Origin: Muricea muricata
Taxonomy: Eukaryota > Cnidaria > Anthozoa > Malacalcyonacea > Plexauridae
Reading direction: 5' to 3'
Assembly (NCBI GenBank): GCA_963855995.1
Contig: CAWLCR010000065.1
Coordinates: forward strand, 69,501 to 133,500
Length of the DNA stretch: 64,000 nt
The notes below the pieces were generated by a model. It did not search any database. It saw only the letters and a list, made by a program, of their open reading frames with translations, and was not told where the DNA came from. Positions 15,060 through 37,364 of this stretch are shown here, piece by piece; within the stretch, counting starts at the first letter, position 1; the number at the start of each line of letters is the position of its first letter. The position numbers and the translations under genes were made by a program.

Positions 15060-16444
15060 AGTTACTGGTATGGTCACTGGCCATAGCTCCGTTAATTACT
15101 TTATTTCGCATTTTCTGACAAATTATGCCGATTTTCCGAAACGGTTTCATCAGTTACTGACCAACTCAATCCCCCCCCCCTCAACGAGTTAAAAAACGGT
15201 ATTGCATTTTGTACCTGTCCAAACTTGCCAGGAAAACGTACAAATTGTAAGATGTCAACTTATTACTATGAAATTGTGCATTTGGGAAGGAAGACCCTAG
15301 CAACCGGGTTGGAAATTATTTATGACGTGTTCCTGTCAGGGGATCACCCAATGTGTTGCATAGCTTTTATTTTTATCCTTACTTTTAACATTGGGCGAGA
15401 GTATATAAAGAGTATAGATTTAGATATAGAGAGTATATATTTTTTAAAAAGTATTTTTATGCACTAGCACTTTATACTTGCCTTCTGTTTTTAAAATTGT
15501 CTTTTGAACATACGAGATTGATACCATATGAATATCAGTGAACTTATATATTATTTGTGATATTATATAGAGTTCACTGGTGTTGGTGGATATATATGGG
15601 ACTTATATGGGATATACATGTTAAACTATTTTACTAATCCATATTATCCACGACAATTACAAGCTATCCCAAGTAAAATAATAGTTCCCAGGTTGTTGCG
15701 CGGAATTCAAAATGGCGTCGAAGAAATGAGCATTCCTCGATTTAGCCGCTAATTGCACACTTCTTCTACGCCATTTTGAATTCCGCGCAACAACCTGGGA
15801 ACTATTATTTTACTTGGGATAGCTTGTAATTGTCGTGGATAATATGGATTAGTAAAATAGTTTAACATGTATATCATATATAAGTCCCATATATATCCAC
15901 CAACACCAGTGAACTCTATATAATATCACAAATAATATATAAGTTCACTGATATTCATATGGTATCAATCTCGTATGTTCAAAAGACAATTTTAAAAACA
16001 GAAGGCTAGTATAAAGTGCTAGTGTGCTAGTGCTTAAAAATACTTTTTAAAAAATATATAGCTACTCTCTATATCTAAATCTATACTCTTTATATACTCT
16101 CGCCCAATGTTGAAAGTAAGGATAAAAATAAAAGCTATGCAACACATTGGGTCAGCCCCTGACAGGAAACATGTCATAAATAATTTCCAACCCGGTTGCT
16201 AGGGTCTTCCTTCCCAAATGCACAATTTCATAGTAATAAGTTGACATCTTACAATTTGTACGTTTTCCTGGCAAGTTTGCACAGGTACAAAATGCAATAC
16301 CGTTTTTTGACTCGTTGAGGGGGGGGGGGGGGGGGATTGAGTTGGTCAGTAACTGATGAAACCGTTTCGGAAAATCGGCATAATTTGTCAGAAAATGCGA
16401 AATAAAGTAATTAACGGAGCTATGGCCAGTGGCTATACCAGTAA
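15060..16444. repeat. 1.38-kb foldback (long inverted repeat) 2
   Basis: Arms 15060-15719 and about 15765-16444 mirror each other with few differences around a loop of about 45 bases. The arms include the C/G tract (15170 and 16320) and the sequence around AAAATGGCGTCGAAG. Part of the central sequence (CGCCATTTTGAATTCCGC and neighbours) recurs once more at about 14541-14610, so the repeated unit exists outside the foldback. No coding frame. Confidence 0.9.
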
Positions 16445-17052: not shown

Positions 17053-18548
17053 TAACAAATCCCATTTGTATTACATTAAATTATATATTTACTGTTAGTA
17101 TACTGTATATATCTAAATAAAGTCTAAAGCCTTTATTATCACTGTATGTATGAAAATATGATCATTGGCAAGATAAAATGGTAAGTTGTTTTTCTTTAAA
17201 ATCAATTGCTTTTTGTAACTTCCCCTTCCTATTCCCAACTTGCCTAAAGAAATACAGTTATTTAGCGTACTATATATTTCTAAATGATTTCTTAGATGAT
17301 ATTTCTTATACTTCTATTTTTCGTTTTTCATATAGTTTTAGAACTCTGACTGAAACCATTGTTAATCAGTTACACTACTTCTGCCACCTCAACAGCTGGA
17401 TTACACTGAAATGTATTTTTACTTCAACAAAATGTGTTTTTCCCCAATTTTTAAATAATATTGTGTAGATATACTTCATCATCTATAATGGCACGAAATC
17501 TTCTATATACGAAGTGGTACATTTGTCATGAGGAATCCTGTGTAATGTGCTTCAGAGTTGTTTTGGATTGGAAAATTTGTTGTACGTATTATGGATTTGC
17601 TGTATTATCACTGGATAGATCTGAGTTATGAAACATCTAAATACAGTATATGGGCCTGATGGGACAAAGAAAAGATAGTTACAAAACATTTGTTTACCAT
17701 AGAGTAAAAATTCCAGATGCAACATCAAAAGTTCATCTAACAATAATAGTCAACAAGTGACACGACAATGATTTAGAGTAATGTATTAGTCTGAATTCCA
17801 AACTATTATTAACTAGATCTTCATGGTTGTACCAAAAATTCAGTGTTCACAATAATCCACAATGTGTTGGTTTGTGAACTGGAAGAACTTTTCAAACCAA
17901 GTGTTGTAATCTCAATTTTGACTACAAAATACATCGATACATACAGTGTGGCTTTGTATGTGTATAACTATACTGGGTGTATAAAAAATGTCCCAAATCG
18001 AAAATCGCTTCCTAGTTGGACATTCTGCAACAGCTTATATGGGACTTCAGGAGTGCATCTCAGTCCATTTTGTTTTCACATGTTCCATTTTGTAAGCAAG
18101 GGAGGAGTTCAAAATTCATAATTTTCAAGAGGCTTGTGCAAAAAAAAATTTAAGGTAAAAATGAATTTTTTTTGCACTGCCAGCAAATATGGAATGTTGT
18201 TATTAATCTTTCTCAAATCATTAATAATTCATGAGCAATTTAGTCAACGACAAATCACTAGTGATCTTCCTCAAATATCTTAATTAGGCATGCAAAATCA
18301 AGTCAGCAAACAAATTAAAACCCAAAATTGCTTTAATTGTAATCAATGTTTGCCGTCTACAACAAATCTAATGTCACAGCCTCTAAAAACACACTTGTCG
18401 AGTTTAATCCCTCAACCACTCAGCCAAAGACAAACCTGCATGGTCAAAGTATCTCAATACAATTCCTAATTACGATATGCTTGGTTAGAAATTCTGTTCA
18501 AATCAGCAAACCAAAACATCCTGTTACGTCTCGATTCATTTGAGAAGC

Positions 18549-18701
18549 CATATGAACAACTCGAGCTCGTGTCCCACCGGGATATCCAAACACTCGAAAA
18601 TAATGGACAAAAACACTCGCGCTTCGCGCTCGTGTATTCACCATTATTTTCTCGTGTTTGGATATCCCGGTGAAACACTTACTCTCGTTGTTCATATATT
18701 A
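18549..18701. repeat. Palindromic MITE inside the left arm
   Basis: TATGAACAAC, CACCGGGATATCCAAACA and CTCGAAAATAATGG are mirrored around CACTCGCGCTTCGCGCTCGTG, giving a near-complete hairpin. It is absent from the matching right arm, so it inserted after the arms formed. Confidence 0.75.
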
Positions 18702-18759
18702 CGTAAAAGTTTTAAAAAATGATACGAACTAAATACCAACGCGCGACCCTTAAAGTTCT

Positions 18760-19033
18760 GTTATGGCTATCTTTAAAAGCCGGAACGGGGAATCGGGGAA
18801 CGGAACGAGGAACGGAACGGGGAACGAGAAAAACCGGAACGAGAAAAGCCGGAATCTTTAAAAACCGGAACGAGAAAAGCCGGAATCTTTAAAAACCGGA
18901 ACGAGAAAAGCCGGAATCTTTAAAAACCGGAACGAGAAAAGCCGGAATCTTTAAAAACCGGAACGAGAAAAGCCGGAATCTTTAAAAACCGGAACGAGAA
19001 AAGCCGGAATCTTTAAAAACCGGAACGCATTAA
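18760..19033 (+). repeat. 31-bp minisatellite (left arm)
   Basis: A GGAACGGGGAA-rich lead-in is followed by about six copies of a 31-bp unit (GGAACGAGAAAAGCCGG plus AATCTTTAAAAACC) from about 18833. The same unit appears reverse-complemented at 30262-30540. Confidence 0.95.
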
Positions 19034-19240
19034 AGATTTGATGCTAGCCATTCGGCCAAAAATCTGCAACTAAACAAAATTATGATAGGAATTACCAAAA
19101 ATGGTTTTACATAGTTATAAGTGTTTACATCAGATCAAATTAAGATTTTTTAATATCAATTTCTTAGCGTTGCAAGCATGCGCGTTAACCGTTTTTAAAT
19201 GTGAGGTGGCGGTGAAGTTGCTATAATTGTAGCGTTTTTG

Positions 19241-19532
19241 TAACGATTACTCTCGATTTCAGTTTGCTTTTGAAAAGACACTTCGAATGTTCGTTTGTAA
19301 GTTCAGAATGTTCGTTGCAATGTTCCAATGTTTGTTTTGAAGTTCGTTCCGAGTATTTACGATTATTGAAAAGTGAGCAATTTGATTAGCTGACTTATTA
19401 TGGCAGCCAATCAGAACTTGCAAAGCTGGCTCATCGTAAATTGTCGGAACGAACTTCAAAACAAACATTGGAACTTTGCAACGAACATTCGAAGTGATTT
19501 TTCAAAAGCGAACTGAAATCGAGAGTAATAAT
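19241..19532. mobile_element. Inverted-repeat MITE (~290 bp)
   Basis: Termini ATTACTCTCGATTTCAGTT and inverse, continuing through GAATGTTCGTTGCAA and GTTTTGAAGTTCGTTCCGA. The small minus-strand frame through it is a by-product of the repeat. Confidence 0.7.
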
Positions 19533-20104
19533 AATTAACTATTCTCCGAAGGCGAGGTGTTTATCATATTGATTGTTTTAGTATTCTTACACAAGTTATT
19601 TTAATTTCATTTATTTCTTTGTCCGTAATTTGTACAAAACGGCGGCTAGTCGCCATTTTGTAAACTTGTTTTTAATGTTATATTCACCTGTAGGTGAATA
19701 TAAAGGAATGTCACGTCAAATTGCACCAATCACAACATTGGATTTCTTATATTCACTTGTGTAAAAATGCTAATAGTCTTTAACAAAACTCTTTAACAAA
19801 ACATTCCTAAATACTTCCGAACTTCGTTCCTAACATTGCACTCGTCACCAAGTTTTGGGAACTTGGCAACAGAATCGAGAAGTTCGAAACAAAGTTCCGA
19901 AGTTTTCAGTGAAAATTATCTGAAATCGACGATTAATGTTTCAACGTTAAGACCTGCTCAAACGAGGGCAACCTGTTGGTGCAACATCATCTCCTGTTGG
20001 TCTCGTTTGAACACCATGTTGGATGATGTTGGCTTCAATTTAAACCTGCTTAAAATCTTCATCCAACATTAGGTTGGCTTCATTTGAAAGGGCCTTTTGC
20101 GTCT

Positions 20105-23100
20105 TTAACAGTTGAACGTCCAACCAAAGTTAACTGCCAAATGTCGCAAATGTTCTTGTTGGAGATACGGGATGAATTCCGGTCCGATTTTCAAAAACTC
20201 CACTGAGAAACCAGGGTATTTCATCAAAATACACTCATTCCGGAGGTGAAAATGAACATTTTGTGCACTCGCACTTCTTTGTAGTTGTCCAGAGAATCTG
20301 TCCCTGTATTCGCGTATATCCCGGCAAAAAACGATCAGGTCATCGGGGCGGTGTAAGGGTGGATTCTGAATAATTCCGTTGCATCCGTAACACCGGGACA
20401 CTCTAGTTCCTTGAACCCACTTTAAATAGAAATTTGGCACGGAGGCCAGCTGTTGGGGATTTATCAAATTATGTACGGTTCCTGCCGTGGAAACTCCATC
20501 TGGTAAAGTTGCGCTGGAAGGTGTGGCTTGAACATGATAGCCATAGCCCGTCTGGGGTATACCACAAGTCACCATTGAAGGGTAACGACTCAATGGGCTA
20601 ACTTGTGACATACCATTTTTGGCAAAAGAGGGCGCAGAAGCACGTTGCTGGTGATGGAAGGTATTTACTTGTGTTGTGTCTGAGTGCGAAAGAGTAGTGG
20701 GAACTACTGGATTTGAGGAAAAGCCCGTACTGTGCTGCCGAACATTTCTGGCTGCCCTAGCAGGTGGTTGTTGGCCACCTGATAAATCCTCAGATTGATC
20801 ATCACTGCCACCAAGCAAATCTGTATACTCGTTAACTGATTGCTTCTTTGCATTTGACCGTTTTCTTTTAGACGGCTTTCTGCCCGCATTCTTCGGCCCT
20901 CTCTGTTCTACCATATCCATCATAGCAGGTTGTTTCCTTCGCTTAAACCAGGCAAGAAATTCACCGAGCGACCCTCTCAACTGCGCAACAGCAAGAACGT
21001 GCTCGCAAACTTTGGTAGCGTGGTTGATACATGTACGATCGCATGACAAACAGCCGCCTTTGCCAGGAGTAACACTATGAACTTTGTTTAATGTTCCCGC
21101 GACAGTAAAAGAACCATTATCAGCCCCGGGTTTGGGAATAACACTTCCCTTTGACACAAGCAAATTGGACGCTTTCTCGAACATAGCTTCAAGGATTGGC
21201 AAAGGTACTGTTGTTATTTTGCTTTCCTTTGCGCTGATGCTCATTGACGACGTTTGCTCTTCATCCAAGGAGTCTTCTTGATCAGGGCTGGTAGCATCGT
21301 GCATGTCGTTCATCCCTGCGTTCTTAAATTCAATCAGCTTTTTGGTCTTTTGAGCGTAACTCAAACGGCTTATCTCCACTTCGCCAATCGCAAGATGCTG
21401 AAAACTGGGCCGAACTCGGTACATTCCTTTGCCAAACACAGCACGATCTTGATTACGTTGTTGAGTTTCGATAATATTCTTGATTTTATGGATAAACTCG
21501 TGTGGCTTTTCAACGTTGAAATGCAGCCCATGCTTAATAATGAAGTTTGCTGACTCAGGATCGTTGTTGATGTACTCTGAAGGAGGGTTTCCAAGTCCAG
21601 CTTCTACTCGGACAGGTCTCAACATCGATTCCTTCATATCAGATGCCTGATAAAAAACACCTTATCATTAGTAAATGTAGGTATATGTATGTTATCGCTA
21701 GTTATGAATTCTTGTCGGGTCACTCTCGTTTAGGTGTAAAATTTATATTTAATTTCGAATTCAGTCACCGAAGCGAGGTTGAGAAGGTTTACACACATAG
21801 AAACACACAAGTTGTAGCAAGTCTGCTGCAGGCTTGTTGCACGTTGTTATCAAATTCTAATTTTCTGCTTTTTCTCACTTTTTTTTCTCTTCACTGCCGC
21901 TAACTACACATATGCAGGTAATATAATACTACCTTTTCATACTGAAACCACTCGAAAAACGTGCGTTTGTGGCTACCATTTCCGATCTCATTTTCTCTTT
22001 CTTCCCAGCTTACTTTCAGCCCTTCAAGCTTCGAGTCAAATTCTTCTTCAGTTTCACAGTCAACTAGCCCGAAGAACTTGACAGAACCCTCCTGTTTCCC
22101 AAATATTTCCGACACGAAACGCTTCTTTTCGTCGCCCGTGATTCCTCTGCTTCCGAGCTCCCTTTCGATATTGTCTTTAAAATGCAAGAAACAACGTAGA
22201 AATACTGCGAAACGCATGTTTCGTTTGAAGCCGTCAATCAGGGCTTTTTCTCCATCAGTGCCAACGGAAAGAACACCCTCCAACTCTGGCTTTAAGGTTA
22301 CCAGAGCATGTGCAAACTTTGAGTAAGTTTGCCAGTCTTTTCTTTGGTGCATTAACAATGGTCCCACGAACACAGGTGCCTTTCCAGTTTTTGGGTTTTC
22401 TAACTTGAGATTTCTGTACGTGGTGACAGTGAGACTAATGTTCCGGTCAAAAATATTGAAGGTTGGATCAATTCCCAGAACACTGTATTCCTTGGGGTTT
22501 GTACAAAATTGAACAAGTTCTGTGAGTTGCTGATCGTTTGCTATAACGACAAAGAAGTCTGGATGTATTGCACATTCCCGTATAAAAACTGCGTCCTTGG
22601 AGAGTTCTTCCTCCCGTTTGGCTCGTTCTAAAAGTGTCCATATACTATTCACATGAACGTCTTTATTATTTTGGTATTTTTTTCTTTGAGTACCACGTGG
22701 CAGAGAAGGGCGCTCCGAAGATTGATTAGCGGAGTGTCTGGCGTTATAAATGTCATTTGGCCCTCTCGGTAGTTCACCAAGAGACCTTGCCATTGTAACA
22801 TCCCCGGATGCAAGATACACTTCATCTAGCGATTCCTTCACTGTCTTTCCCTTTTGAAATACGGACTGTTTCATCTTTTCCCGTGTGCTAGGTAAAATGC
22901 GCGTGTATGAGGTTCTCGCTTTTGAATTTCCGTGGGGCTTTATACATTTAACCTCGTGTTCCAAGCCACTGAATAAGTATTGGACAAAGACAACAGGAAC
23001 TTGATTGCCATGATTATCTACATGGAATAAATACACTTCGTTATTAAGCTCGTAAAATTGCATGTAACCTGCAACAATTTCATCTCACGATCGAATTTCT

Positions 23101-25086
23101 TTTTAGTTCAAGACTCCTATTTTCTCTGTTTAAAAATCTTTTTCGAATGAAAAAATGTGTTGATAGATAATCCCAAAAGTAATTTTGTATCAGTATGAAA
23201 AAGTTCAGCCGACAAAATTCAACATGCCGTATAGTTTAGATATGATCTTGCGAACATCAGGATCTGAAGCATTTTTGTAGTATGCCCGTTTCAAGGTGTA
23301 TAAATCGCTTGTTCGCTCCGTTTGACTGCTTGAACTTCTACCAACTGCAATAATTCGTTTAACCCCTCGGGAGTTCTTTTCCACATGAAATTGGCATTTC
23401 GGAGAGCCGTTATGCTTCCAGACACCCATGTCATCGCATTTAAGATCGTCTTCGTGTTGCATATTTTTCGTATCCACCAAGAAACAGACATTGTGAGAAA
23501 TATTTATGGGCGGAGATAGGCACATTTGTTCTGGCTGATAGGTGTCCAACAGGATAGAAAACAGTTCTTCGCTAGTGTATGCAACCTTATTCCAGGAGAA
23601 GACTGGTGTCATAACATCTTCCTTGTAAGGTTCAAAACAATTACTTGTGGGCCCAGGCGATGACCCATTGCGACTAAAATAGCAGGAAATAGCATGTCAT
23701 CATTAATTCCAGGGAACGCTTGCATAGCGCAGAAAAGATATCTTGCTCGTGCGAAACAAAAGATCAAAACTAACCTTGAAGACTCATCTTCACAGCTGGA
23801 TTCATTATCTGTTGAAGACTTATTCTCGTCGGTCTGTTCTGGTAAATAAAAGAATAGTGAAGGTTAGTAAATTGTTTGGATATAAAATATACTTTTCCAG
23901 TACCGCAAGCTGCAATTAAATTCGCCGTTCGGCAATATTTGAGAAAAACGAACCTTTAGTCGAACTGGATGAGGTCAGCGACAGGACTGGTATTTCATGG
24001 ATGTCATCGCGTTCACTGAAAACCGTTGAAGTTTTCACAAGTCTTTCTTGCCGCTTGCTAAAAATGCAAGAATTCCATAGTTGAGTGCGTGAAATTATGT
24101 CTTATGGCTATCTCCACATCATTTTTTCCCCGGGCCCAAGGAATTCTATTATGACGATGCGCACGGGCATATATACATCGTTTGATCTTGATTACCTTCG
24201 AATATTTTCTTTATCACCAGCTGTGTATGTATTTGCTATAGATGGCTCCTGCATATTAATACAAAAAATCATAAATATATTTCACGCAGGATATTTTTTT
24301 ACTTCCGTAACCCATCCAAGTAATGTTTCCAAAATTTATTCAGAGATACTTCTGTCCACCCCATTACCATACAGCAGTTGTGCAATATAACGTTGGACGT
24401 TTCATATACCTCCTAAAACTACTTAACAACATAACAACAATATAATACTTCAACCTCTAAGTTTCTCCCTATTTCTTGGTCTTCTGGGAATAATTCAAGA
24501 CTTCCCTCGTGATCTCCTACTTCATGAAGCGTCACTGCAGGTATCGTCTTCTCTTCAGGAACACCAAACACGTTTACCGTAACCTACATCAAAATAGATA
24601 GAGAAACGAATACCTTATTAATCTTCTGGAAGATATCCTTGTTCATGTACAAATGGTAGTCAATCGTACCATTTCTTCATCGTTTTCAACCAACGTCTTT
24701 TCACAAGTATTATCAACAACTTTGGTGTTGGTGTGACGCTGTTCTGCTTGATTTCTTTCTTCGTGAACATCAGTTTCATTTTCATCTACATTGTAGAAAC
24801 CAAACAAGTAGTTGTAATCAAAAACGTTCCAAACAATTTCAGTGTTAAGTTAAAGTTAAAAATTGTGTGATTACTGTGTAGATACATTAGTGACGTTACC
24901 AAAATCTGCACTATTGTTGCTTTCGCACTTGATTAATAATGGTAATTGCCCTGAGTGGAATTCCACTTTATTACATTCATTTTGAAATCTACAAGCGGCG
25001 CCAGCGCTAGTTTGTTTACAAAAAACACGCCCGAACTTGCCCCCATCTTGTAACATAGCAACATGCGAACAAAATGGCCGTGACAT
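20105..25086 (-). CDS. MULE-family transposase with SWIM zinc finger, spliced
   Basis: Exons on the minus strand: 25086-~24875 (ATG at 25086, cysteine-rich), 24785-24670, 24583-24455, 24053-23954, 23838-23775, 23672-~23205, ~23068-21933 and 21646-20105. Phases agree between 24785 and 23672 and across 21933/21646. The first junction and the one near 23205/23068 are unresolved. The exon reading MGVWKHNGSPKC is followed by the MULE catalytic region: GIDPTFN (about 22465), VGTDGEKAL (about 22250) and CFLHFKDNI. The last exon has a SWIM finger, CLSCDRTC...CEHVLAVAQL (about 21000-21060), a basic KRKRS stretch, a low-complexity linker and a C-terminal CYGCNG...PDDLIVF module. SWIM fingers follow the DDE core in MULE transposases. 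No stop or clear frameshift is seen in the core, so the enzyme may be functional. Confidence 0.87.
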
Positions 25087-25509
25087 AAAGTCGGGTGATA
25101 CAAAACAATAGGACTTAATAGCGGATTTTAACGTAAAATTGAAGAAGACAAAAAGGGAAAATGCATCAAAAGTAAGTTAAACATATAATGTCTTTTGTAT
25201 AGTTTCACAAAGTACTTTTTGGTGCGGTAAATGTACATTACAACCACGAACGTCGCGCTGCCGTTGCTTTTCAATAGTTGTCTTTAGTTGTGCGATATTC
25301 TTTGTCGGAAAATCTGTCTCTTTCATTATAATTTCCAAATTAATTCTGTAATATTTTGTTTATATTCTTTAGTATTTTGCTGTCATTTCTGTTTGTTTAT
25401 TTGAATATTTACAGTATTTGAATACAATTTAAATTCAGCAATTTTGTATAGAAAACTACTTGTCTTGAAAAAGTCTAATTTTATGTTTTTTTGTGTTCCT
25501 ATACTTAAA

Positions 25510-25645
25510 GCTGACTGGTTGGTTCAACTCAGATGTTTCATTTGATTGGATTTTATGAGAGAGTGTGATTAACGTGTAATCACACTCAAAATGACGCGAT
25601 TTGATTAATCGCACTATTTTTAACCAATCAGGTTTCAGGAAACAC
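25510..25645. repeat. Hairpin between transposase and kinase genes
   Basis: GACTGGTTGGTTCAA...CAATCAGGTTT and GTGTGATTAACG/CGTGTAATCACAC are inverted. It lies in the 650-bp gap between the two minus-strand genes. No other signal was recognised in the gap. Confidence 0.45.
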
Positions 25646-25739
25646 CATTGATTTCAAAATGAATGTAATAAGATTTGGAATGCATGTGGTGAGCTTGAGT
25701 GATTTGATAAAAAACGGCCACGCACGCAGTTAAGACATT

Positions 25740-27611
25740 CTATGAAAAACTGGCGCGGGTTTTTTTTTGCAGTAGACTTATAATTGCTTCGCCGTATAGG
25801 GTATCAAACTGCAATAATCGACAAAAAAGCAGTGTCATTATATACTTACTGACTGTAATCCAAGCCAAACTTTGCCGACTGCTGCATCCAAGGCCACTTT
25901 CCAACAGTCTTCTATGGATCCAACGAACCAAGCGCATGCACGAAGTATCATTTGTATCTTGAGTATACAGTAAAATACCGTTCCCGTTACCACCCAAAGA
26001 ACAGCTGATTGGATGAGTATCCAGAACGAAAAACGATTGCCTATTGAAGCCAACAAGAAATGTGTATGGTTCACACGTATAAAGTCCGACTCCATGGGAC
26101 GACATCTGCGCAAAACGGAGTAGAACATGAACGAAATGATCTCTACCGGCAACAGAAAACACGCGTTGCGTTGCTTCGTCGACAAATTCTTCGGAAAGTG
26201 TGCAGTTGTTTATGAGATTGTTGTTTCTCATCAACGAATAAGCAGCAATCGGTTCGTATAATTCTTCTTTGACGCGCAGTTGATTAATAACAATAGGATA
26301 ATTATTAATAACATCTTCAGCTGTTGTTTTCAATTCACTCCATTCCAGAGGCTCATTTGATGCAAGAAATCGATTTGCTATCTCCAAACCAAGAAAAGCG
26401 CATGAATTTGTTCCGTCATTATCCACAGCTGTTTCCTCATTCTCGTATTCAATTGAAATAGCATTTGAACTATTCAAACGTTCCGCGGCTATCTTGTCCT
26501 GTTCACAAAGCGAACTTGCCTGACTTACTTGTAAAGGGACCACGTGTTCGACTGAAGCAGAAAAACTTTTACCCTTAGACAACATGGTAGTTACATCGTG
26601 CGCTGATGGTCGCAATTCTGGTTCAAATTTGGCGCAATTCTTGAAAGCATTCTCAAGTCGCCACCACTCAGAGACTTGAAGAAATTCATAGTCTGGTCCG
26701 TGTTGAGGTAAACGTTTTGCTTCTAGAAAAACTTTCAAAGACTCGATCGAATCTTTTTGGCTATCGGGGAACAAACAATGTTCATATGGATGATCGACGT
26801 CAGGATTCATAAGGCAATAAACTACCATAGCAAAACTCCAAATATCTGCTCGTTTCATATCCTCTTGGGTCATGGATCGTGTTGCCCGTAAATATGCTTC
26901 TGGAGCCATGAAAGCGGGCGTTCCGCGATCAACCCGAGCAGTACGTGTTTCCACAAGTGTTCGAGTCTGCAAATATGTTGCCCTGCTCTCTCCGAAATCC
27001 GCCAACTTGCACTTTATGGGACTTTCTGCGAATCGACAGGACTGCTCTTTTTCCGGAAGTTGCCCAAGGTAATGCTGGTTCGTGACCAATATATTGCTTG
27101 GTTTCAGATCGCGATGGACGATACCGTTGGAATGAAGAAAACACAGTCCTTCTGCAACATCGCGGGCGATCTCTAATGGACAGTGTTTTAGCGCCGAAAA
27201 TTCAAGTTTCTCATCAACAAACCGTAAAAACTCACTCAAATCGGTCACCGTCTTTTCAATTCCAAACACAGTGAAGTCGAAATACACATGCTCTATCATG
27301 ATTGCAAATGGTTCGGCGCAAAATGCAATAAAAGAAGCAATGTTCTTATGATCAGGAAGGGGATGAAGTAAACGTGCTTCTTTCAAAAATAAACGCTTAC
27401 TTTCCTTGGTCTGCGTGTGTAGTTGTTTCACCACAACATCTTCAAAAACATCATCACGCCTTTCGTACCGGCCAGAATACACAGCCCCAAAAGCTCCACT
27501 GCCTAAATGCTTCTCAGTTGAAAAATCACTCCAGTTAAATAAAGGAACGTCTAAATCAGGAACTGTATCACGGCGAAGAGAGAGTTGAGGAATTGCAAAT
27601 ATTCCAGCCAT
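25740..27611 (-). CDS. Protein kinase fused to putative C76-like cysteine peptidase domain
   Basis: Single long frame of 623 residues. Residues about 32-345 form a kinase: glycine loop GSGAFG (37-42), VVVK lysine 62, helix-C Glu 78, HRDLKPSN (166-173), DFGE (205-208), APE (236-238), ADIWSF, and ELRPS near the end. All catalytic residues are present. It looks serine/threonine or TKL-like from HRDLKPSN. A linker follows, then residues about 395-575 hold NDGTNSC (Cys 404), GVGLYTCEPYTFLVG and LDTHP (Asp 531, His 533). A Cys plus D-x-H layout is that of herpesvirus-tegument-type (C76) ubiquitin peptidases; that is inference from motif spacing. A good donor (GTAAGT) follows position 25850, so the last ~37 residues may be intron and the gene may continue leftwards. 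It lies about 650 bp upstream of the MULE transposase, same strand, with no obvious damage. Confidence 0.85.
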   Translation of the reverse strand: MAGIFAIPQLSLRRDTVPDLDVPLFNWSDFSTEKHLGSGAFGAVYSGRYERRDDVFEDVVVKQLHTQTKESKRLFLKEARLLHPLPDHKNIASFIAFCAEPFAIMIEHVYFDFTVFGIEKTVTDLSEFLRFVDEKLEFSALKHCPLEIARDVAEGLCFLHSNGIVHRDLKPSNILVTNQHYLGQLPEKEQSCRFAESPIKCKLADFGESRATYLQTRTLVETRTARVDRGTPAFMAPEAYLRATRSMTQEDMKRADIWSFAMVVYCLMNPDVDHPYEHCLFPDSQKDSIESLKVFLEAKRLPQHGPDYEFLQVSEWWRLENAFKNCAKFEPELRPSAHDVTTMLSKGKSFSASVEHVVPLQVSQASSLCEQDKIAAERLNSSNAISIEYENEETAVDNDGTNSCAFLGLEIANRFLASNEPLEWSELKTTAEDVINNYPIVINQLRVKEELYEPIAAYSLMRNNNLINNCTLSEEFVDEATQRVFSVAGRDHFVHVLLRFAQMSSHGVGLYTCEPYTFLVGFNRQSFFVLDTHPISCSLGGNGNGILLYTQDTNDTSCMRLVRWIHRRLLESGLGCSSRQSLAWITVSKYIMTLLFCRLLQFDTLYGEAIISLLQKKTRASFS

Positions 27612-27875
27612 TAATAAACACAGAATATCTTGATTAACTTAGAAAAAAAATTAAATACAGGGCATTCGAAAAAAAAATTCACGTACTAAATATTCATATG
27701 TATCCAAATAGAATTGTACATAATAATGATGCAATATTTACTAGTTATTCTATCAATCACACTTTGTGATTCGCGCTTGTTTTCCTAGATATCCGGTAAC
27801 TAAACGTAGCGAGCCATCACATTATTCTTGAAATCTAGTTTTCACGTTTCGTCCATTGCACCAATAGCATTATAG

Positions 27876-28078
27876 CAGTGGCGGATCCAGGGTAAGTCAA
27901 AATAAATTATAGCAGCTCAATTTTAAATTCAAAATAACTTTATAACAATGTCATAGGTTATGAATTTCAAAAGAATAAAATCTAACCAATGAAGTTGCTT
28001 TGAAGGTATTTTAAAATGTAAATATATCCTAGAATGAGCTGTGGTAATTTATTTTGACTTACGCTAGATCCGCCACTG
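27876..28078. mobile_element. hAT-type MITE with perfect 8-bp target duplication
   Basis: Terminal inverted repeats CAGTGGCGGATCCAGGGTAA and CAGTGGCGGATCTAGCGTAA (read inward) continue through GTCAAAATAAATT. Flanks are an exact 8-bp direct repeat, CATTATAG, at 27868-27875 and 28079-28086. An 8-bp duplication with CAGTGG-type ends fits the hAT superfamily. Length 203 bp, no ORF. Flanking 28090-30240 has no recognised gene; it contains short telomere-like CCCTAACCC text at 28245-28265. Confidence 0.9.
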
Positions 28079-30261
28079 CATTATAGCCAATGTTTTTTTG
28101 AAAAAAGGTAAAATCCGTTACCACAGCATTAAATAGCCAACCGATCCGAACGTTGTATTCCAGTAAAATTACTGGTTACAACGTTTGATAATTCCAACAG
28201 TTACTGGAATTGTCATTTCATGCATATAAAATGAACCCTGACCCAAACCCCAACCCTAACCCTACAACGTTCGTATCGGGTGAAATAGCATCCCAAAGTT
28301 AGTAAATTGGCAAAGTTCGGTAGTGAAATGCATTAGAATGTGAAAAATATATCAGCGTGACTATTTCACACATTTTGAAACATTTTACAATCAAACTTTT
28401 CAATTTCACCAACTTTAGGATGGTTTTTTATGTTGTGGTGAAAGATTTTCCCATTTCGATTTTTAATTTTTTTGGCTATTGGCAATTGGCCCATTGTCTA
28501 CTCGCCCGAGTCCTTTTACGCATGTCATGGTGAGTCGATTTTTCAAATTTCCACGTATTGGAAATGGGTATATGCAGGGCCAAAGTAATCTTGTTTTTTT
28601 GGTTGGGGAAATCAATTTTACATCAATTTATTTATAACATACAGAGTTTTCACTTGTTCAGCAGAATATTCCCAGGAATTTCCAGGAAAATTCCTATAGT
28701 ACTGTGGATCAAATCACCTAACACACCTGTGGACTGGTTAGTTAATTAATGTAGAAATATGGACATTCCCGTATAGGGATTTTCAATGACAATTTACAAT
28801 TGTTTTGACCATAAGGATATTAGTTTACAAAGCTGTCCTTCACTAATATTGTTATGTAATTACTGGTAGCCAAAATTAAAGTGGAAATTATTCATTTCCT
28901 GATGAAAGTCTTTCTTTTAATTTAAATTTAAAATGTTTGAGATTAGCTGTCAATTTTAATTCCTCATCTAATTCATTCCAAATTTTGGTTCCTTTCTATT
29001 TAAATGTTCTTCGACCCGTCACTGTCTGATACTTTGGTATGTCAAGTTCATTTTGAATATTATGAATCGAATAAATGCATTGAAGATAGTCATATATTTC
29101 TATTCATATTTCTATGATATCCTAAATTATAGTAGCAGGCAGCTACTTTCAAAAAAAATTTGCAGCACATAAATCCCCCCCCTAGAAATCTAGGGTGGTG
29201 GCTTCAACCTTAATGTAATCACATCCCTACCAACTTCCCATTCATTTTCTTTCTCAAAATTTCTAATAATTCTTAAAGCATAAACTTAAACTAGGTATGA
29301 AATGAAAAATTGGCAGCAAGAGGGCAGCATTAAACCAGTGTGTGTCAACTGACAACTGTCAAATATTATTGTTTATATATTACCTGGGAAATCTATTTTA
29401 TAACACAAAATAGGCCAGAGAAATTTTTTTATTGCATTCCCATTAAAAATATGTTAAAATAAGCAAGTGTATTTACAGGATGGTTGCGATTTTTTATGGA
29501 TTCAAAATGAAAACTTCAATCGACATGCAAGCATGATGGTTGGCACACATTCTTCAAGGCGTACCATATAAACATTTCAGTCGTTAAGTAGATACTATAT
29601 TTGTTGTAACCAATGATGCAATTGCTTAAAAATCATTAAGAGTCTGTATTTTAAAGGTATATTATTTAAAAAATGCATAAAGTCTGCTAAATTATTGGGG
29701 CTATGGCCCTATTATAAGTTATACAAAGCACTCTGCTGTTTCACAACACCCAATTGTTTAGCTCATTTTAACAGTTCTTTAAACACAGTTTTTCTGGTCA
29801 ATCGCCGAAGAAATATATTTGGGACTTTACGCAACGGCGACGCGAGACCTTGAGTTGAGGACGGAGTTCGATTTGATTATTTTTTATATGCTAATGTCTA
29901 AAAGTAGCGCTAGCTAGTTACTGATATATAAATTACATGCAAATCATATTCGCAAAACCTGTCAGGCTGTCAACCGAACGCAATCGTGAAAACTCTGAAA
30001 ACAATAGCACTCAAACAATAAAACAATACATTAAAATGTGATAAAATTACTCACCATTGGAATAAAACTTTGCTTTGAATCTTTGATTGCTTTTCGGACG
30101 AACAAAGTAGAAAAAGACGGTCTTTTCTACAAGACCACACGTGGATAGCCTGGGAAGCAGGCCTTTGCGGGCGGGCAGGGGTTTCCTCCGCCTCGCTCCC
30201 AACCCCGTTCCCCAAAACGCCTGCTCTGCAGGCTAACACGTGCATTGTGTGGTTGGGTTAG

Positions 30262-30540
30262 TTTTAAAGATTCCGGCTTTTCTCGTTCCGGTTTTTAGAG
30301 ATTCCGGCTCTTCTCGTTCCGGTTTTTAAAGATTCCGGCTTTTCTCGTTCCGGTTTTTAAAGATTCCGGCTTTTCTCGTTCCGGTTTTTAAAGATTCCGG
30401 CTTTTCTCGTTCCGGTTTTTAAAGATTCCGGCTTTTCTCGTTCCGGTTTTTAAAGATTCCGGCTCTTCTCGTTCCGGTTTTTCTCGTTCCCCGTTCCGTT
30501 CCTCGTTCCGTTCCCCGATTCCCCGTTCCGGCTTTTAAAG
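30262..30540 (-). repeat. 31-bp minisatellite (right arm), inverted relative to left
   Basis: About seven copies of the reverse-complemented 31-bp unit (TTCCGGCTTTTCTCG plus TTCCGGTTTTTAAAGA), then the CCCGTTCCG-rich segment and GGCTTTTAAAGATAGCC. It mirrors 18760-19033. Confidence 0.95.
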
Positions 30541-31179
30541 ATAGCCGTTCTGTTATTTCTCATTTTGCGCTGTTTTAAAAACGCGTAATAGATTTTCGCT
30601 TCTATTTGTCTTTGTGCCTAATTGTGTTTAATTTACGCACATGCTTACTGTTGCTTGAGATCAGCTCATTAACACAATTATGCATTTTTAAACAGCGCAA
30701 AATGAAAAATACTGGAATTTCAGGGGTCGCGTGTCGGTATTTACCACCTATCATTTTTTTCTAAAAAATTTTACAGATTAATAACAACATTCTGTATTTG
30801 CTGGCGGCGCAAAAACAAATCTTTTTTCGTTTAAAATTTTTGTGCGCAAGCCACTTAAAAATTAAGTATTTTGAACTCCCCCCTGCCTACAAAATTGAAC
30901 ATATGAAAACAAACTTGACAGAGATGCACACCCAGATGTCCTATTTTAGCAGTTGGTATCCGTAATTGAGCAAATATCCAGTTTAAAAGCGATTTTGTAT
31001 TCGGGGGATTTTTTTATACACCCTGTATACAAGTTAATTTTGCATTAAGTTCATGTGGCAAAAAGGCAGCACCTTGCGATAGTAACTCCTAGTAATAAAT
31101 ATATAAGTACTTACTGCACTTGCCATCGACCTTGCTACGTTGTTGTCGAAAGGATTCCCGGCGGCTTTCCCGCTTTTCT

Positions 31180-31358
31180 GTACGATACAGTTAATTGAAA
31201 ACAATAAGCTTTATTTTCCTTAAAATATAAAATAAACTTCGAAAAATAAACTACAAACGTATTTTGTTTCGATTTACAACAACAACCTATTTCCCGCCAA
31301 AATACATAAATTAATACGCCGTCAAAAATAGCGGCGCAAAATATAACTGTTTACGACA
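31180..31358 (-). repeat. 3' LTR of BEL/Pao element
   Basis: 179 bases, TG...CA ends, essentially identical to 37148-37327. Contains AATAAGCTTTATTTTCC and several AATAAA-like stretches. Confidence 0.95.
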
Positions 31359-31434
31359 CTCCCGAGGGTTGATCAAAGTTGATCAAATTAACATAACATA
31401 AACTAATGTCAATATTGATTACTTTACGTGTTCA

Positions 31435-34400
31435 TCACGTGATAGATAATCTTCTTGCCATTTCTCCTGCAATAGCTGCCTTTCGTCTCATTCTTTGTAT
31501 CTGGTTGTTTCTCAGTTTCTCTGCGTTGGGTTGATCCGTACGACTAATATCACGAACGTCTTCTTCTTCACGACTACGATCACGAACGTCTTCTTCTTTC
31601 GTAGTTGCCCTTACTTCAAGTGGTATCAGGTGTTGTATTGGTCGTCTAAGTGTGATCGGTTTACCGCCTTCGCCGTTTACCCTAACCTTTGCCGATCGCA
31701 CTACACCATCGCTGCTTGGAAGCAACTCTTCTACCTTGGCCAATTTCCAAAACATGCGTCGGGTATTGTCATTTCGTAAAATTACCATATCTCCTACAGC
31801 CATCGGTCCATTATCACTGTCCTTTAGATTCGTCTTCGACGATTCTCTTAAACTCAACAAGTACTCCGTTCTCCATTGTTTTATAAACTGATTTAGAACG
31901 CGTTGATGATACTTTGCTCGCTTGGTGAGCAAATGATTTGCGCTAACAATGTCATAATGCTTGTCATTAGGCACGCTTGAAATCTGTCGACCGTAAATCA
32001 AATGCGAGGGTGTGAGCGCATATGATATGCTCTGTTCATCATCATAAACAAATGTCATCGGTCGATTGTTTAGAGTGGCTTCAATCTCGACCAATAAAGT
32101 GTGCAGTTCTCCAAACGACAACGACGCGAGTCCAATGGCCTTTTTTAGGCAACGCTTAACACTTCGCACCATTCTCTCCCAGAATCCCCCATGCCAGGGG
32201 GCCTTTTCGGTGATGAACTCCCACGTCACTCGTCTGTTGGCAAAGTAGCGCTTTACATCTTTCGATTCACTAATCATCCTCACTTCTTTCGATGCAGATT
32301 TAAATGTCTTTGCATTGTCCGTCAAGATTTTATTTGGCAGTCCTCTGCGGCTGATGAAACGTCTGAAAGCTTGAAGAAAGGTAGCTGCTGACATGTTTTC
32401 TACCAGTTCCAAATGTAAAGCCCTCGTAGACGCACAGGTAAAGAGCGCTATGTATACCTTGTCTTGTTGGCGATTGTTACAAGATGAATTCTTTACGTAA
32501 ACAGGACCAGCAAAATCTATACCTGTGTTCGAGAAAGGAGGCTCTTCGCTTACTCGACATGTTGGAAGCTGTGGCGTCTTGGGTGTCGCAAATGGTTTTG
32601 CTTCCATCTTTCTGCACACGACACATCTTCTTACTACTTTTTTTACCGCTTCTCTACCCCTTTGGATCCAATATCTCTCTCGAATCGAATTGAGTGTATC
32701 CCTGATTCCATTATGGTGAACAACAGCGTGATGTTCACGGATAACTAGTTCGGTAAAGTAATGTTTTGAAGGTAAGATAACTGGTCGTTTCGCTTCCTGT
32801 TCTTGAGAAGAGTTCTGAATTCTTCCTTCGCATCGTATTAGCCCATCCTCGTCTAGAACAAGACCCAATCGTGAGACAACAGGTGTCAGAATTTTGGACG
32901 CTCCTGCAAGGTACTGTAACTCGCATTGAAATTCGTGTTCTTGAATGTTCCTGATTAGTATTCTTTCTGCTTCCTGTAATTCTTTTGCTGTCAACTCAGT
33001 GCTTTCGAACTTGTGGTGCGGGTTTTTCCACCTTTTAGCACATCTTCTAACGGTTGCTGTTACTCGTAACAATCTCAATTTGGTGCTATATCGACTCATA
33101 TCTATGATGTTGCCAATATCGGAGGTCTGACGATCGCAATTGGTTGATGGATTTGACATCGAGTACACAATGGTTGGTGAGGTCTTCTTGAGTTCGACCA
33201 GCGCCTTTTCTTCGTTATGGATACAACCTTGCTGTGGCTCTCGAGGCCAACACTCGGGCGAATGATTTAAGAACTCCGGGCCTGTCCACCAATTGTGACT
33301 TCTAACTAGATCTTCTGCCGTACAGCCCCTCGACGGTAGGTCGGCAATGTTGATCTCTCCCGGACAAAATCGCCAGTGCACTCGATCAAGAAGTTCCCTG
33401 ATTTCTTTCACTCTATTTTGAACGTACGGCTTCCAGGCTTTGTCATTTCGAATCCAACATAAGACAGTATAGGAATCGCTCCATAAGTATACTTCGGGGG
33501 GCGTTACAAGAAAATTCATTGCTTCTCTCACCGACTTGACCAGTCTAGTTAGAATAGTCGCTCCAAGCAACTCTAACCGAGGGATCGATTGCCGTTTCAT
33601 TGGAGCTACTCGTGACTTAGATGCGACGAGGTTGACTTCGATATCACCATTCGCATGCTCAGTACGAAGATAAACGACTGCCGCGTAAGCTTTGTTGGAT
33701 GCATCAGAGAATCCATGTAATTCGTGTTTCACAGGCGGGAACTCCTTCCTCTTGAAGTAACATCTCGGTACTTTGATGTCTTTCAAGTCGGCCAAGTTTT
33801 GAACCAATCTTTTCCATTTGACCAATAGCTCTCCTTTTAACTCGTCGTCCCAATCAATCTTCGCTAGACATAACTCTTGAAAGAATGTTTTCATCTTGAT
33901 CGTAAAGGGTGTTAACAGTCCGATCGGATCGAAGATCTTTGCAGAGAGCTGTAACACTGATCGCTTTGTGGCCGATAAAGTAGTGGCATACCTTGATAAT
34001 TTGACATAATCATGGAGGAGTGTGTCCTCATCAACGTCCCAAGGGATTCCTAAGACCTTTACTGGTTCCTTTCTTGCCTGCCCGTTGTCGCTGGTTTCGG
34101 TGCTTCTCGCGAGGTTATCATCATTCATTTCTATTAGGTTTGGAGCTTGATCTGTCGCTATCTTTTCTTGCAAGTGCTTTGAATTGGTGTGCCATTTTCG
34201 CAAAGTGAATCCCCCCGTACTCATCAAGCTTTGTGATCCCTCGTAAATTTCAACTGCTTCACTATCGTTCGAGGCACCGCCCGCGAAGTCATCGACGTAG
34301 AACGACTTTCGGAGTAACGACACGATCTCGGGATTCTTCTCTTCATTCACAGCCAAATGATGGTTTAGTACAGATGTTAAGATCGCAGGACTTGAAACAA

Positions 34401-37053
34401 GGCCAAAGACTAAACGACAGAATTGGTATTTTCGAATTTCGGGTCTTTCCTTGTTCGGGTCATCAAACCATAAGAATCTAACCATTCGTCGGTCATCCGG
34501 TGCGATCTTTACTTGGTGGAATGCTTTTTCGATGTCTGCAATCATACCGATTGCATATCCTCTGAAGTTGATAATCACGTCAAAGAGATCAGGTACCAAG
34601 TTCGGTCCTTTTTCTAAACAATCGTTTATGGAAACGTTGCTGTTATCAGGCTTCGCTGAACCATCAAATACTACACGCAATTTGGTGGTTTCCTTGTCTT
34701 GCCGAACAACCCCATGATGTGGTAGATAGTATGTGCCTTCATCAGTGTCCTGTTCTTCGGAAACAGGCTCAATAATGCCGGATACTACTTGTTGTTGAAT
34801 AATTTTGTCATACTCTTGGAGAAGTTCTTTATCTTTCTTGAGACGTCTGTGGAGTTGTCTTAGACGGTTCGCACACGATGCATAACCATTCGATTCAGGC
34901 TGAGACTCAGGTTTCCATGGCAAGCTAACTTCGTAGCATTTTTCATCGTCATGATAGGTCAACTCTTTGAGGAACTTGTCATCATCTGTCTTCTCGTCAT
35001 AGATACCAAGTGACTCAGTATCCCAAAATCTGCGCAGTTCGTTCGTTAAGGTTTGGTTCTTGTCTTCGAAGGCAAATCTACTCTTTGCTGGATCTGAATT
35101 TCCTCTTAAAATGATCAGATTGGCAGATGAGGCCTCGTCTTTTATGTCCTTCTGCGTTGGACCGGAGATCACCCAACCAAATATAGTGTTAATAGCTACA
35201 GGGCCTTTGTCTCCTCGACAAATTTCATCAGTGACAACATCAAAATAATGATCAGACCCAATCAAAATGTCAATGTTTGTCGGAATATCATTAACCAGAC
35301 TAGAATCTGCAAGCTGTAAACCACGTAGATGAGGGTAGGACTCTACATCCAATTTCATTGAAAGGGGCGAGCATATTTTCGGGAAGGTAAGGGCGGAAAT
35401 TTCTATGGTCTCGGGTTTTGCTTGCAATTTTATCTTCACTTCATCACAGCGTTGTTTCGTGACCCGGTCTTCTCCAAACGTATTGAGGTTTAGTGTCTCA
35501 GTTCCCAAACTGTTCAAGCCAAGTTTTTCCTTCAACTGGTCGGTAACGTATGAGCGCTGGCTACCGCTGTCAAGTAAAATTCTCACTGGTACAAGTTCGC
35601 TGTCATCATGACTAAAGGCAAACGTTGTCGCAGTCTGTAAGAGGACCTCCCTTTTACGGGTTGAGCTTCTTGAAGGCTGGCTTACAGTCGATGTTGCTAC
35701 CGTATGTCCCTCTGGGTCTTTCTTTTCAGAGCCTTTCGAGTTGTCTTGTTTTGTTTGACTTTCCTTTGGAGGGTCATGTGCTTTGCATATTGATTGGTGA
35801 TGAAGTCCTTGACATCGTCGACATTTTTTGTCACATTGTTTCGTAATGTGTCCTTTTCGCAAACAAACAAAACAGCGATTATCTAGTTTTAGAATCTCTT
35901 TTCTCTTGCTGACGTCACGAACTTCTTCACACGAAGCGGAGTAATGAGGTTTCTGGCAAAATGCACATCGAATGGGAAATTTATTTTTCAAACCAGATTC
36001 TGAAGCCACGAGCGCTTTAGCTGAACCCAGGTCTCGAGCACCTGGACCATTGTGTTTTTTGTTCAGATTGCTAGCGTTAATTGGGATATTCTCACACACC
36101 TCTCGTGCTTCCACCTCTTTCTGGATGACATTTAGTAATTCTCCAATTTCCCACACATCCTTCGAAGTGTTTCGAGCAATTTGGATCCTAACTTCCTCTG
36201 GCAACTTTGACATTATTACCGGGATCAGTAAACTCCCGTACTGATCTGCCTTCACCCCGACAGCTTCTAGCCCCCTTACGTTCACACTAACCTTGTCGTA
36301 AATTAATCTAAGACTCGTTGCTTTGCTTCCACTACAAGTAGGCAATTTCAAAAGTTCGTCCATATGAGCTGCTATGACTTGCTGGGTTCTGCCAAATCGA
36401 AGATGGAGTATTTCAACAGCCGACTTGTAGTTATCTTCGGTTATGGTTAACCCTTGAATTGCATGTAGACCAGGTCCTTCTAACAGCGAATAAAGATAGT
36501 TAAATTTGTCGATGGGTGTCAAATTTGGGTTGTTGTCTACAGCGCTCTGAAAGCTATCCCAGAAGGTGCGAAACTTGGTTATTTCACCATTAAACCTTGG
36601 CAGGGATAACTTTGGCAATCGAGTTTTTTGTACAAACTGGGCCATAGGCATAGATACTGGATTTGTTTCCGGACTCGAGTGTTCAATTACAGATTCGGTG
36701 GTAATTTCGGTTGACACGGACACTGGAGATTCGTTGCTTGTTTTTGCCTGGTGCTTCTTCGCGAATAACTGTTCGATTTTGTTCTTGGTTTCGTAAACTC
36801 TCGATTTTATTTCCTCAGATTCCTCGATGTCCTTCCCAATGTCTTTTATGTCGCATTCTTCAAGTATTTCGCTATCGAGCTTTATTACTAAAGCAAGTTT
36901 TTCGTTAAGGAGCTTGTTTAGCGTTGTTAAACGATCCAGTTTGGACTGATCCACCTCTCCAGACATGTGCTCTATCGCTTCTTTCATATACTTCGTAAGG
37001 ACCCCTCGATTCGCCGAGCGAATTGCTCGTTTTCGTTCAATGGCTTCGCTCAT
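31435..37053 (-). CDS. BEL/Pao Gag-Pol polyprotein, intact
   Basis: One frame of 1872 residues from ATG 37053. Order of regions: N-terminal coil; gag-like region with LPRFNGE...FWDSF (about 150); zinc knuckles CAFCQKPHYSASC, CFVCLRKGH and CRRCQGLHH (about 363-410); aspartic protease LLDSGSQRSYV (about 493); reverse transcriptase LRVVFDGSAK and the YVDD active site in FYVDDF (about 919); RNase H with FSDAS (about 1115); integrase with the HH...CVVC zinc site (about 1440-1475), DDE residues at GIDFAG, TDNAKTF and the Glu of GGFWERM (about 1512, 1575, 1622); and the C-terminal DUF5641-type tail. The fused gag-pol frame and YVDD are typical of BEL/Pao. No disruption is seen. Confidence 0.96.
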   Translation of the reverse strand: MSEAIERKRAIRSANRGVLTKYMKEAIEHMSGEVDQSKLDRLTTLNKLLNEKLALVIKLDSEILEECDIKDIGKDIEESEEIKSRVYETKNKIEQLFAKKHQAKTSNESPVSVSTEITTESVIEHSSPETNPVSMPMAQFVQKTRLPKLSLPRFNGEITKFRTFWDSFQSAVDNNPNLTPIDKFNYLYSLLEGPGLHAIQGLTITEDNYKSAVEILHLRFGRTQQVIAAHMDELLKLPTCSGSKATSLRLIYDKVSVNVRGLEAVGVKADQYGSLLIPVIMSKLPEEVRIQIARNTSKDVWEIGELLNVIQKEVEAREVCENIPINASNLNKKHNGPGARDLGSAKALVASESGLKNKFPIRCAFCQKPHYSASCEEVRDVSKRKEILKLDNRCFVCLRKGHITKQCDKKCRRCQGLHHQSICKAHDPPKESQTKQDNSKGSEKKDPEGHTVATSTVSQPSRSSTRKREVLLQTATTFAFSHDDSELVPVRILLDSGSQRSYVTDQLKEKLGLNSLGTETLNLNTFGEDRVTKQRCDEVKIKLQAKPETIEISALTFPKICSPLSMKLDVESYPHLRGLQLADSSLVNDIPTNIDILIGSDHYFDVVTDEICRGDKGPVAINTIFGWVISGPTQKDIKDEASSANLIILRGNSDPAKSRFAFEDKNQTLTNELRRFWDTESLGIYDEKTDDDKFLKELTYHDDEKCYEVSLPWKPESQPESNGYASCANRLRQLHRRLKKDKELLQEYDKIIQQQVVSGIIEPVSEEQDTDEGTYYLPHHGVVRQDKETTKLRVVFDGSAKPDNSNVSINDCLEKGPNLVPDLFDVIINFRGYAIGMIADIEKAFHQVKIAPDDRRMVRFLWFDDPNKERPEIRKYQFCRLVFGLVSSPAILTSVLNHHLAVNEEKNPEIVSLLRKSFYVDDFAGGASNDSEAVEIYEGSQSLMSTGGFTLRKWHTNSKHLQEKIATDQAPNLIEMNDDNLARSTETSDNGQARKEPVKVLGIPWDVDEDTLLHDYVKLSRYATTLSATKRSVLQLSAKIFDPIGLLTPFTIKMKTFFQELCLAKIDWDDELKGELLVKWKRLVQNLADLKDIKVPRCYFKRKEFPPVKHELHGFSDASNKAYAAVVYLRTEHANGDIEVNLVASKSRVAPMKRQSIPRLELLGATILTRLVKSVREAMNFLVTPPEVYLWSDSYTVLCWIRNDKAWKPYVQNRVKEIRELLDRVHWRFCPGEINIADLPSRGCTAEDLVRSHNWWTGPEFLNHSPECWPREPQQGCIHNEEKALVELKKTSPTIVYSMSNPSTNCDRQTSDIGNIIDMSRYSTKLRLLRVTATVRRCAKRWKNPHHKFESTELTAKELQEAERILIRNIQEHEFQCELQYLAGASKILTPVVSRLGLVLDEDGLIRCEGRIQNSSQEQEAKRPVILPSKHYFTELVIREHHAVVHHNGIRDTLNSIRERYWIQRGREAVKKVVRRCVVCRKMEAKPFATPKTPQLPTCRVSEEPPFSNTGIDFAGPVYVKNSSCNNRQQDKVYIALFTCASTRALHLELVENMSAATFLQAFRRFISRRGLPNKILTDNAKTFKSASKEVRMISESKDVKRYFANRRVTWEFITEKAPWHGGFWERMVRSVKRCLKKAIGLASLSFGELHTLLVEIEATLNNRPMTFVYDDEQSISYALTPSHLIYGRQISSVPNDKHYDIVSANHLLTKRAKYHQRVLNQFIKQWRTEYLLSLRESSKTNLKDSDNGPMAVGDMVILRNDNTRRMFWKLAKVEELLPSSDGVVRSAKVRVNGEGGKPITLRRPIQHLIPLEVRATTKEEDVRDRSREEEDVRDISRTDQPNAEKLRNNQIQRMRRKAAIAGEMARRLSIT

Positions 37054-37147
37054 ACTTCTTCGCTAAAAATCGCTAAAAATACACGTCGTTTTTTCGATTA
37101 TAACTCTTCAAATTCGGTTAACTCGCCCCACGTTGGGCGCCATTTTC

Positions 37148-37327: not shown

Positions 37328-37364
37328 CCCGCTTTTCCACAGCCGTACTTCATGTTTTATTTCT

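Follow-up and report, generated by a model that had tools for sequence, protein, structure and literature searches.

Two genes between minisatellite-bearing ends

The window analyzed here is a 64,000-nucleotide stretch of the genome of the anthozoan Muricea muricata (G000:C63:69501-133500), and relatives of its features were sought across the 453 Mb and 74 contigs of that genome. At positions 18765-30546 of the window lies an 11,782-bp Mutator-like element (MULE) whose ends are minisatellite-bearing terminal inverted repeats (TIRs). It carries two genes on the minus strand: a MULE-type transposase (23696-20105) and, upstream of it, a fusion of a protein kinase with a viral tegument-like deubiquitinase (VTD) domain (27638-25740), referred to below as kinase-VTD. 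A first-pass annotation of this DNA had placed a MULE transposase and a kinase-peptidase gene on one strand between inverted arms, and that layout stands.

The element is enclosed by two unlike layers of inverted repeats. The inner pair, the TIRs themselves, is 99% complementary over 263 bp (18765-19027, plus strand, with the tip GGCTATCTTTAAAAGCC; 30284-30546, minus strand), and a 31-bp minisatellite is reiterated 6.4 times within the left TIR (18829-19027, plus strand) and 7.1 times in the right arm (30262-30482, minus strand). Immediately outside both ends is a perfect 10-bp target-site duplication, GTTCTGTTAT (18755-18764 and 30547-30556), a length within the 8-11 bp characteristic of MULEs. 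The outer pair (17969-18209, matching 31029-30775) is 76% alike and represents an older host repeat outside the element, because a paralogue on contig C1 (L014) possesses these pieces without the insert: it matches 17053-18284 and 18528-18763 and then continues directly into 30571-31093, with the intervening 11.8 kb absent. The L014 junction also lacks 22 further bases around the target site and is therefore a related, not a letter-perfect, empty site. That annotation was right about the inverted arms and their shared minisatellite but had taken the outer pieces as part of them, drawing the ends of a ~13-kb element at 17966 and 31030. We reject these ends, as their TATA tips are part of the host repeat whose paralogue carries no insert, and the target duplication that had seemed to be missing flanks the true ends. 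Within the left outer repeat, 18210-18709 is one copy of a palindromic repeat dispersed through the genome, where its dozens of matches are mostly 91-97% identical.

The transposase is spread over three open, exon-like open reading frames (ORFs) on the minus strand. ORF 1 (23205-23696) is N-terminal and has a weak match to DUF7747 under the cutoff. ORF 2 (21900-23084) holds the RNase H core, with two aspartate motifs (IDPTFN and GTDGEK) and the CxxH motif CFLH, while ORF 3 (20105-21661) contains the presumed catalytic glutamate (NNDPESANF), assigned by eye against relatives, and a SWIM-like CxxC...CxH motif. None of the three has a Pfam MULE match of its own, and the assignment to the MULE-type DDE transposases is made by homology: both aspartate motifs and the CxxH align with relatives, and the glutamate motif lies in ORF 3. 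When eight proteins were scanned with Pfam, four transposase homologues matched MULE (PF10551) at 18.5-26.5 bits, below the cutoff of 27.6, and one of those four, P0214 (33% identical over 93%), also matched Transposase_mut (PF00872) at 23.2 bits (cutoff 21). The other four, including the 98% identical homologue P0121 and ORF 3 of the window, matched neither, and ORF 3 is without any Pfam match. The closest named relative in the protein search is from Paramuricea clavata (69% identical).

The kinase-VTD gene is an open frame of 632 codons (25740-27638, minus strand) with an ATG at 27611. Its protein kinase domain (26586-27518; PF07714, 1e-31) retains the catalytic residues, and its VTD domain (25791-26558) contains the Gln, Cys and Asp-Thr-His of the family (Cys404 and Asp531-Thr-His533, numbered from the ATG). 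The 50 best rows of a structure search with the whole protein were all kinases, and the C-terminal part was therefore folded alone; its predicted structure adopts the VTD/M48-type papain-like fold. The kinase domain itself has no close solved relative, the best structural match being ULK1 (4.4e-16). For the VTD domain, Pfam gave just a weak Herpes_teg_N match in one of 20 family members (E 0.09) and none for the VTD stretch of the window protein. A Ulp1-type SUMO protease domain was found by Pfam neither in the window protein nor in the 20 members.

Both catalytic centers are conserved in 33 relatives that are 32-88% identical to the window protein. In the resulting 34 aligned rows, counted over those with a letter at the position, the kinase residues are present as Lys 29/31, Glu 32/33, HRD-Asp 34/34, Asn 34/34 and DFG-Asp 34/34, and the VTD residues as Gln 30/32, Cys 30/30, His 22/23 and Asp or Glu 20/22 (16 Asp, 4 Glu). 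The glutamate in some relatives departs from the "invariable" Asp-x-His of VTDs. Judged by these residues, the kinase is apparently catalytically competent; the predicted fold suggests, and the conserved residues are consistent with, deubiquitinase function of the VTD domain. Among kinase relatives that bear a name, that of Dendronephthya gigantea is the closest (49%), and the named close protein relatives are anthozoan. A scan of viral contigs with the kinase alignment returned 16 loci matched in the kinase part only, which were not used, and a phage search gave a single distant kinase.

Copies of the element and of its ends

Two other full-length copies, B (C1:42274145-42285873, 11,729 bp) and C (C1:40987581-40998447, 10,867 bp), are collinear with the window element at ~91-98% identity per block, keep the order of transposase and kinase, and are flanked by perfect 10-bp duplications of their own, TAATTTCAAA and ATTTGTAAAT, respectively. 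The first-pass annotation had proposed to look for just such copies, in which the arms and both genes recur in one order. The window element and copy C have an open kinase frame, and that of copy B is broken. At a fourth copy (C1:1460129) one end and part of the kinase remain. Two short foldback derivatives, L009 (C1:78901850-78905670) and L010 (C25:245938-249876), bear the TIRs of the element; their inverted arms of ~1.6 kb derive from ~1.2-1.8 kb of the kinase-side end, and the target duplication measures 9 bp at one and 10 bp, with a single mismatch, at the other. Long inverted arms built of tandem repeats are a feature of Drosophila Foldback and Tetris, to which L009 and L010 bear a likeness by description only.

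A 24-base pattern of the TIR tip occurs at 82 sites in the genome (at most three mismatches), against none for the reversed pattern. Fifty-four of these tips form 27 convergent pairs within 30 kb, contrary to the possibility, raised in the first-pass annotation, that the arms would be mostly solitary. Flanks were read for 15 of these 27 pairs, and all 15 show target duplications of 9-10 bp, 14 of them perfect and one matching at 9 of 10 positions. A further possibility is that no single element exists and that two unrelated copies of one dispersed minisatellite repeat stand by chance on either side of a transposase and a host kinase gene. The outer arms do belong to a separate host repeat, and 28 of the 82 tips are without a convergent partner within 30 kb; a few of these find one in a looser 14-base pattern list, which comprises the first 100 of 608 places against a high background (438 for a control pattern). 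With 10-bp duplications at the window element and at two other full-length copies, 9-10-bp duplications at every TIR pair read, and 82 tips against none for the reversed pattern, such chance bracketing is so improbable that it can be set aside.

The contents of 28 convergent pairs (the 27 and C3:12927646-12930335, from the looser list) were checked by eye against the kinase and transposase matches. Ten pairs enclose kinase matches, where ~0.02 kinase loci would be expected by chance in that much TIR-bracketed sequence, and five of the ten also enclose a listed transposase: the window element, copies B and C, C4:12813421-12823979 and C2:12217844-12243884 (26 kb). The C4 pair is a complete element of a different subfamily, with a 9-bp duplication and both genes, its kinase 42% and its transposase 58% identical to those of the window. 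The remaining five, all of them short, hold fragments of the kinase and no listed transposase. A further TIR pair, 12.4 kb apart (C6:2986683-2999058), has no kinase or transposase among the matches listed and may be an element with other cargo or a diverged one.

Linkage of kinase-VTD and transposase across the genome

The kinase query gave at least 73 matches (the best 70 of 389 candidates scored), which merge into 61 loci, and the transposase query at least 106 (the best 105 of 280 candidates scored), which merge into 104; both lists are biased toward relatives of the window copy. With at least 61 merged loci, the kinase is not the single-copy gene that the first-pass annotation had named as a possible outcome. 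Thirty-four of the 61 listed kinase loci have a listed transposase no more than 20 kb away, whereas random kinase positions gave a mean of 1.2 linked loci in any orientation and a maximum of 5 in 1000 runs, under a null model in which the lengths of several contigs were approximated. The transposase is downstream and on the same strand in 33 of the 34, the exception being C1:50.29M, where it is on the other strand. Two of the 33 share one transposase, and the linked loci at C1:95.33M and C1:95.92M share 4.7 kb at 100% identity, part of it past the TIR tip; because identity extends into the flank, they may be one duplicated segment or an assembly duplicate. Of the 27 unpaired kinase loci, short TIR elements account for seven and the truncated fourth copy for one. 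Linkage reaches transposases as little as 30% identical to that of the window, and a second transposase query (P0214; 82 matches), compared by eye and kept outside these counts, added no linked kinase locus. The ends, the target duplications, the repeated co-mobilization and the linkage computed here identify the window element as an autonomous-type cut-and-paste MULE.

This breadth bears on how the kinase-VTD gene came to be there. It could have been a host gene that a single MULE subfamily acquired once, in the manner of a Pack-MULE, and amplified with no role for the element; Pack-MULE capture is established in plants, according to the available parts of PMC6431247 and PMC2528002, and broken kinases occur in copy B and at several other loci. 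Against such passive capture stand the linkage to transposases down to 30% identity, the catalytic centers conserved across the 33 relatives and a ratio of nonsynonymous to synonymous change (dN/dS, Nei-Gojobori) of 0.15 over 628 codons of kinase-VTD between the window element and copy C; independent captures of one fusion, which lies upstream of the transposase and shares its strand at 33 of the 34 linked loci, would be unlikely. We regard passive capture as improbable. The transposase core of the same two elements gives a dN/dS of 0.24 (392 codons), and other transposase pairs give 0.32-0.45.

The history of the two genes was compared through their pairwise distances in 16 linked copies, which are correlated (Mantel r 0.73; 0 of 5000 and 0 of 10,000 permutations as high). 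Joint movement is thus observed at shallow depth and constant association deeper, with deep co-divergence not shown by the distance test. In a different explanation, kinase-VTD would be central to a selfish gene family of its own, one that has repeatedly joined MULEs, so that the partnership would be recurrent and not ancestral. Among the 16 copies, the transposase nearest to that of the window beyond its own subfamily (C1:61.75M, 61%) is accompanied by a kinase only 37% identical, and at C2:53.17M the kinase is 46% and the transposase 35% identical; the short TIR elements with kinase fragments and no listed transposase, and a distance test that loses significance on collapsed copies, also fit module swapping. 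The constant order and orientation in 33 of 34 linked cases speak against it, and the distances may be near saturation, in which case both trees would blur. On balance, module swapping seems unlikely, and we consider it probable that a large MULE lineage of this genome has kinase-VTD as a standing accessory gene, one not recently captured from the host.

Several observations weigh against a standing accessory gene. Of the 104 listed transposase loci, 71 have no listed kinase within 20 kb. The element ends described above all come from outside a second transposase clade (30-38% identical to that of the window), which includes the pair C3:19.44M and C1:88.23M, with kinases 98% and transposases 94% identical to each other. 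When each near-identical cluster was reduced to one copy (12 copies), the Mantel correlation fell to 0.17, with 1156 of 10,000 permutations as high; its loss leaves room for module exchange, saturation or uneven rates. Kinase-VTD pairs other than the window element and copy C have dN/dS values of 0.36-0.61; for one transposase pair the ratio is 3.25 at a dS of just 0.0047, and one duplicated pair has a dS of 0 in both genes. Finally, among the three full-length copies of the subfamily, the kinase frame and the transposase core are both open in the window element only: the transposase core of copy C has two stops, and in copy B both genes are broken, the transposase being split.

Known relatives, possible function and neighboring features

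The window element shares with animal MULEs and the Mutator superfamily the two aspartate motifs with CxxH, the glutamate motif, the SWIM-like motif and duplications of 9-10 bp, and its TIR length is within the range tabulated in the part of an animal MULE survey that was available (PMC6446971). It differs in its 11.8-kb size, the minisatellite in both TIRs and the extra kinase-VTD gene; the words "kinase" and "peptidase" are absent from the main text of that survey. Rehavkus and aphid Phantom also combine a minisatellite with duplications of 9 bp or 8-10 bp, but in the available portion of the survey their minisatellite precedes the 3' TIR or follows the transposase ORF (PMC6446971), whereas here it is inside both TIRs. 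Rehavkus has a PHD finger, for which Pfam found no match in the three transposase ORFs of the window, whose exon structure is tentative. A further comparison is offered by MuDR-6_HM, in which HM presumably stands for Hydra. This cnidarian MULE is listed with a deubiquitinase-type extra gene, of the ovarian tumour type instead of VTD and with no kinase mentioned in the part of the source available (PMC6446971). The same portion records that extra ORFs are known in MULEs, one of them with an anti-silencing role (PMC6446971).

The first-pass annotation had likened the element to plant MULEs with peptidase cargo. KI-MULE/Kaonashi and other plant Ulp1 MULEs do carry a ubiquitin-like-specific protease domain, but in KI-MULE the protease is of Ulp1 type, lies in reverse orientation on a non-TIR MULE, and is described with no mention of a kinase in the portion of the report at hand (PMC2528002). 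The comparison holds as an analogy: the window element resembles KI-MULE as a protease-bearing MULE and is not a member of that group, its peptidase having the tegument-type deubiquitinase fold and not that of Ulp1. VTD domains with the same fold and Asp-x-His are known in transposons, including cnidarian Helitrons, where, as far as the accessible text goes, the VTD is part of the RepHel protein of rolling-circle elements (PMC9741609); here it is fused to a kinase in a separate gene of a cut-and-paste MULE. The same text reports cnidarian VTDs fused to "several transposon-associated domains", and the terms "Kinase", "Mutator" and "MULE" are absent from the main text (PMC9741609). A literature search, some terms of which were very narrow and which left Repbase and most subscription papers outside, listed neither a kinase-VTD fusion nor a MULE with such a fusion or with a kinase.

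A kinase-deubiquitinase fusion conserved in a DNA transposon points to manipulation of host signaling or protein turnover. The kinase-VTD protein would act in trans for the element: the deubiquitinase would strip ubiquitin chains off the transposase or transposition complex, or off host restriction factors, and the kinase would select or switch the target through phosphorylation. Either way, the transposase level of the element would be raised or host control dampened. That there is an anthozoan MULE lineage with a dedicated kinase and tegument-type deubiquitinase effector, selected as a trans-acting counter to host control or proteasomal loss of transposase, is a reading we hold as evenly balanced between true and false. 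The narrower proposal that the VTD spares transposition proteins from proteasomal degradation, with the kinase as selector or switch, is tentative and draws somewhat more doubt than assent; it is made by analogy with Helitron VTDs, which have been suggested, in the portion of the source available, to prevent proteasomal degradation of proteins required for transposition (PMC9741609).

If the effector lineage is real, a DNA transposon lineage would have a kinase as a standing accessory gene, a second transposon type after Helitrons would exploit a herpesvirus-type deubiquitinase, and several coral genes annotated as ordinary kinases would be transposon proteins. VTDs are proposed, in the accessible part of PMC9741609, to have spread via transposons and to have reached a herpesvirus ancestor probably from a Helitron, and a cut-and-paste carrier would widen the set of possible vehicles for that spread. 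Annotation of cnidarian kinases, too, needs a transposon filter: relatives in this family are annotated as "calcium-dependent protein kinase 2-like" (Dendronephthya gigantea) and "Cyclin-dependent kinase A-2, partial" (Acropora cervicornis). The proteins P0010, P0026 and P0032, from Dendronephthya gigantea, Porites evermanni and Acropora cervicornis, belong to the kinase-VTD family and are probably transposon genes, two of them being named as ordinary kinases.

The window element has itself received palindromic nested insertions resembling miniature inverted-repeat transposable elements, one at 19246-19529 and the other 5' of the kinase gene at 27862-28092, a 97% copy of which lies beyond the element in L010. 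Adjoining the MULE, a BEL/Pao retrotransposon occupies 31174-37328, with an uninterrupted ORF of 1875 amino acids (31435-37062, minus strand); because its 186-bp direct repeats are 100% identical, the insertion appears to be young. Elsewhere in the window, P-element-like transposase ORFs lie at 8709-11381 on the minus strand, with a TNP-like GTP-binding domain (1.2e-50) in 9075-10418, and two palindromes with arms of ~0.7 kb, ~94% complementary, are found at 1254-2711 and 15062-16444. An inverted duplication of ~6 kb spans 37690-43735, its main blocks 96-97% identical and accompanied by 10-bp tandem arrays of the CACGAATGAC type.

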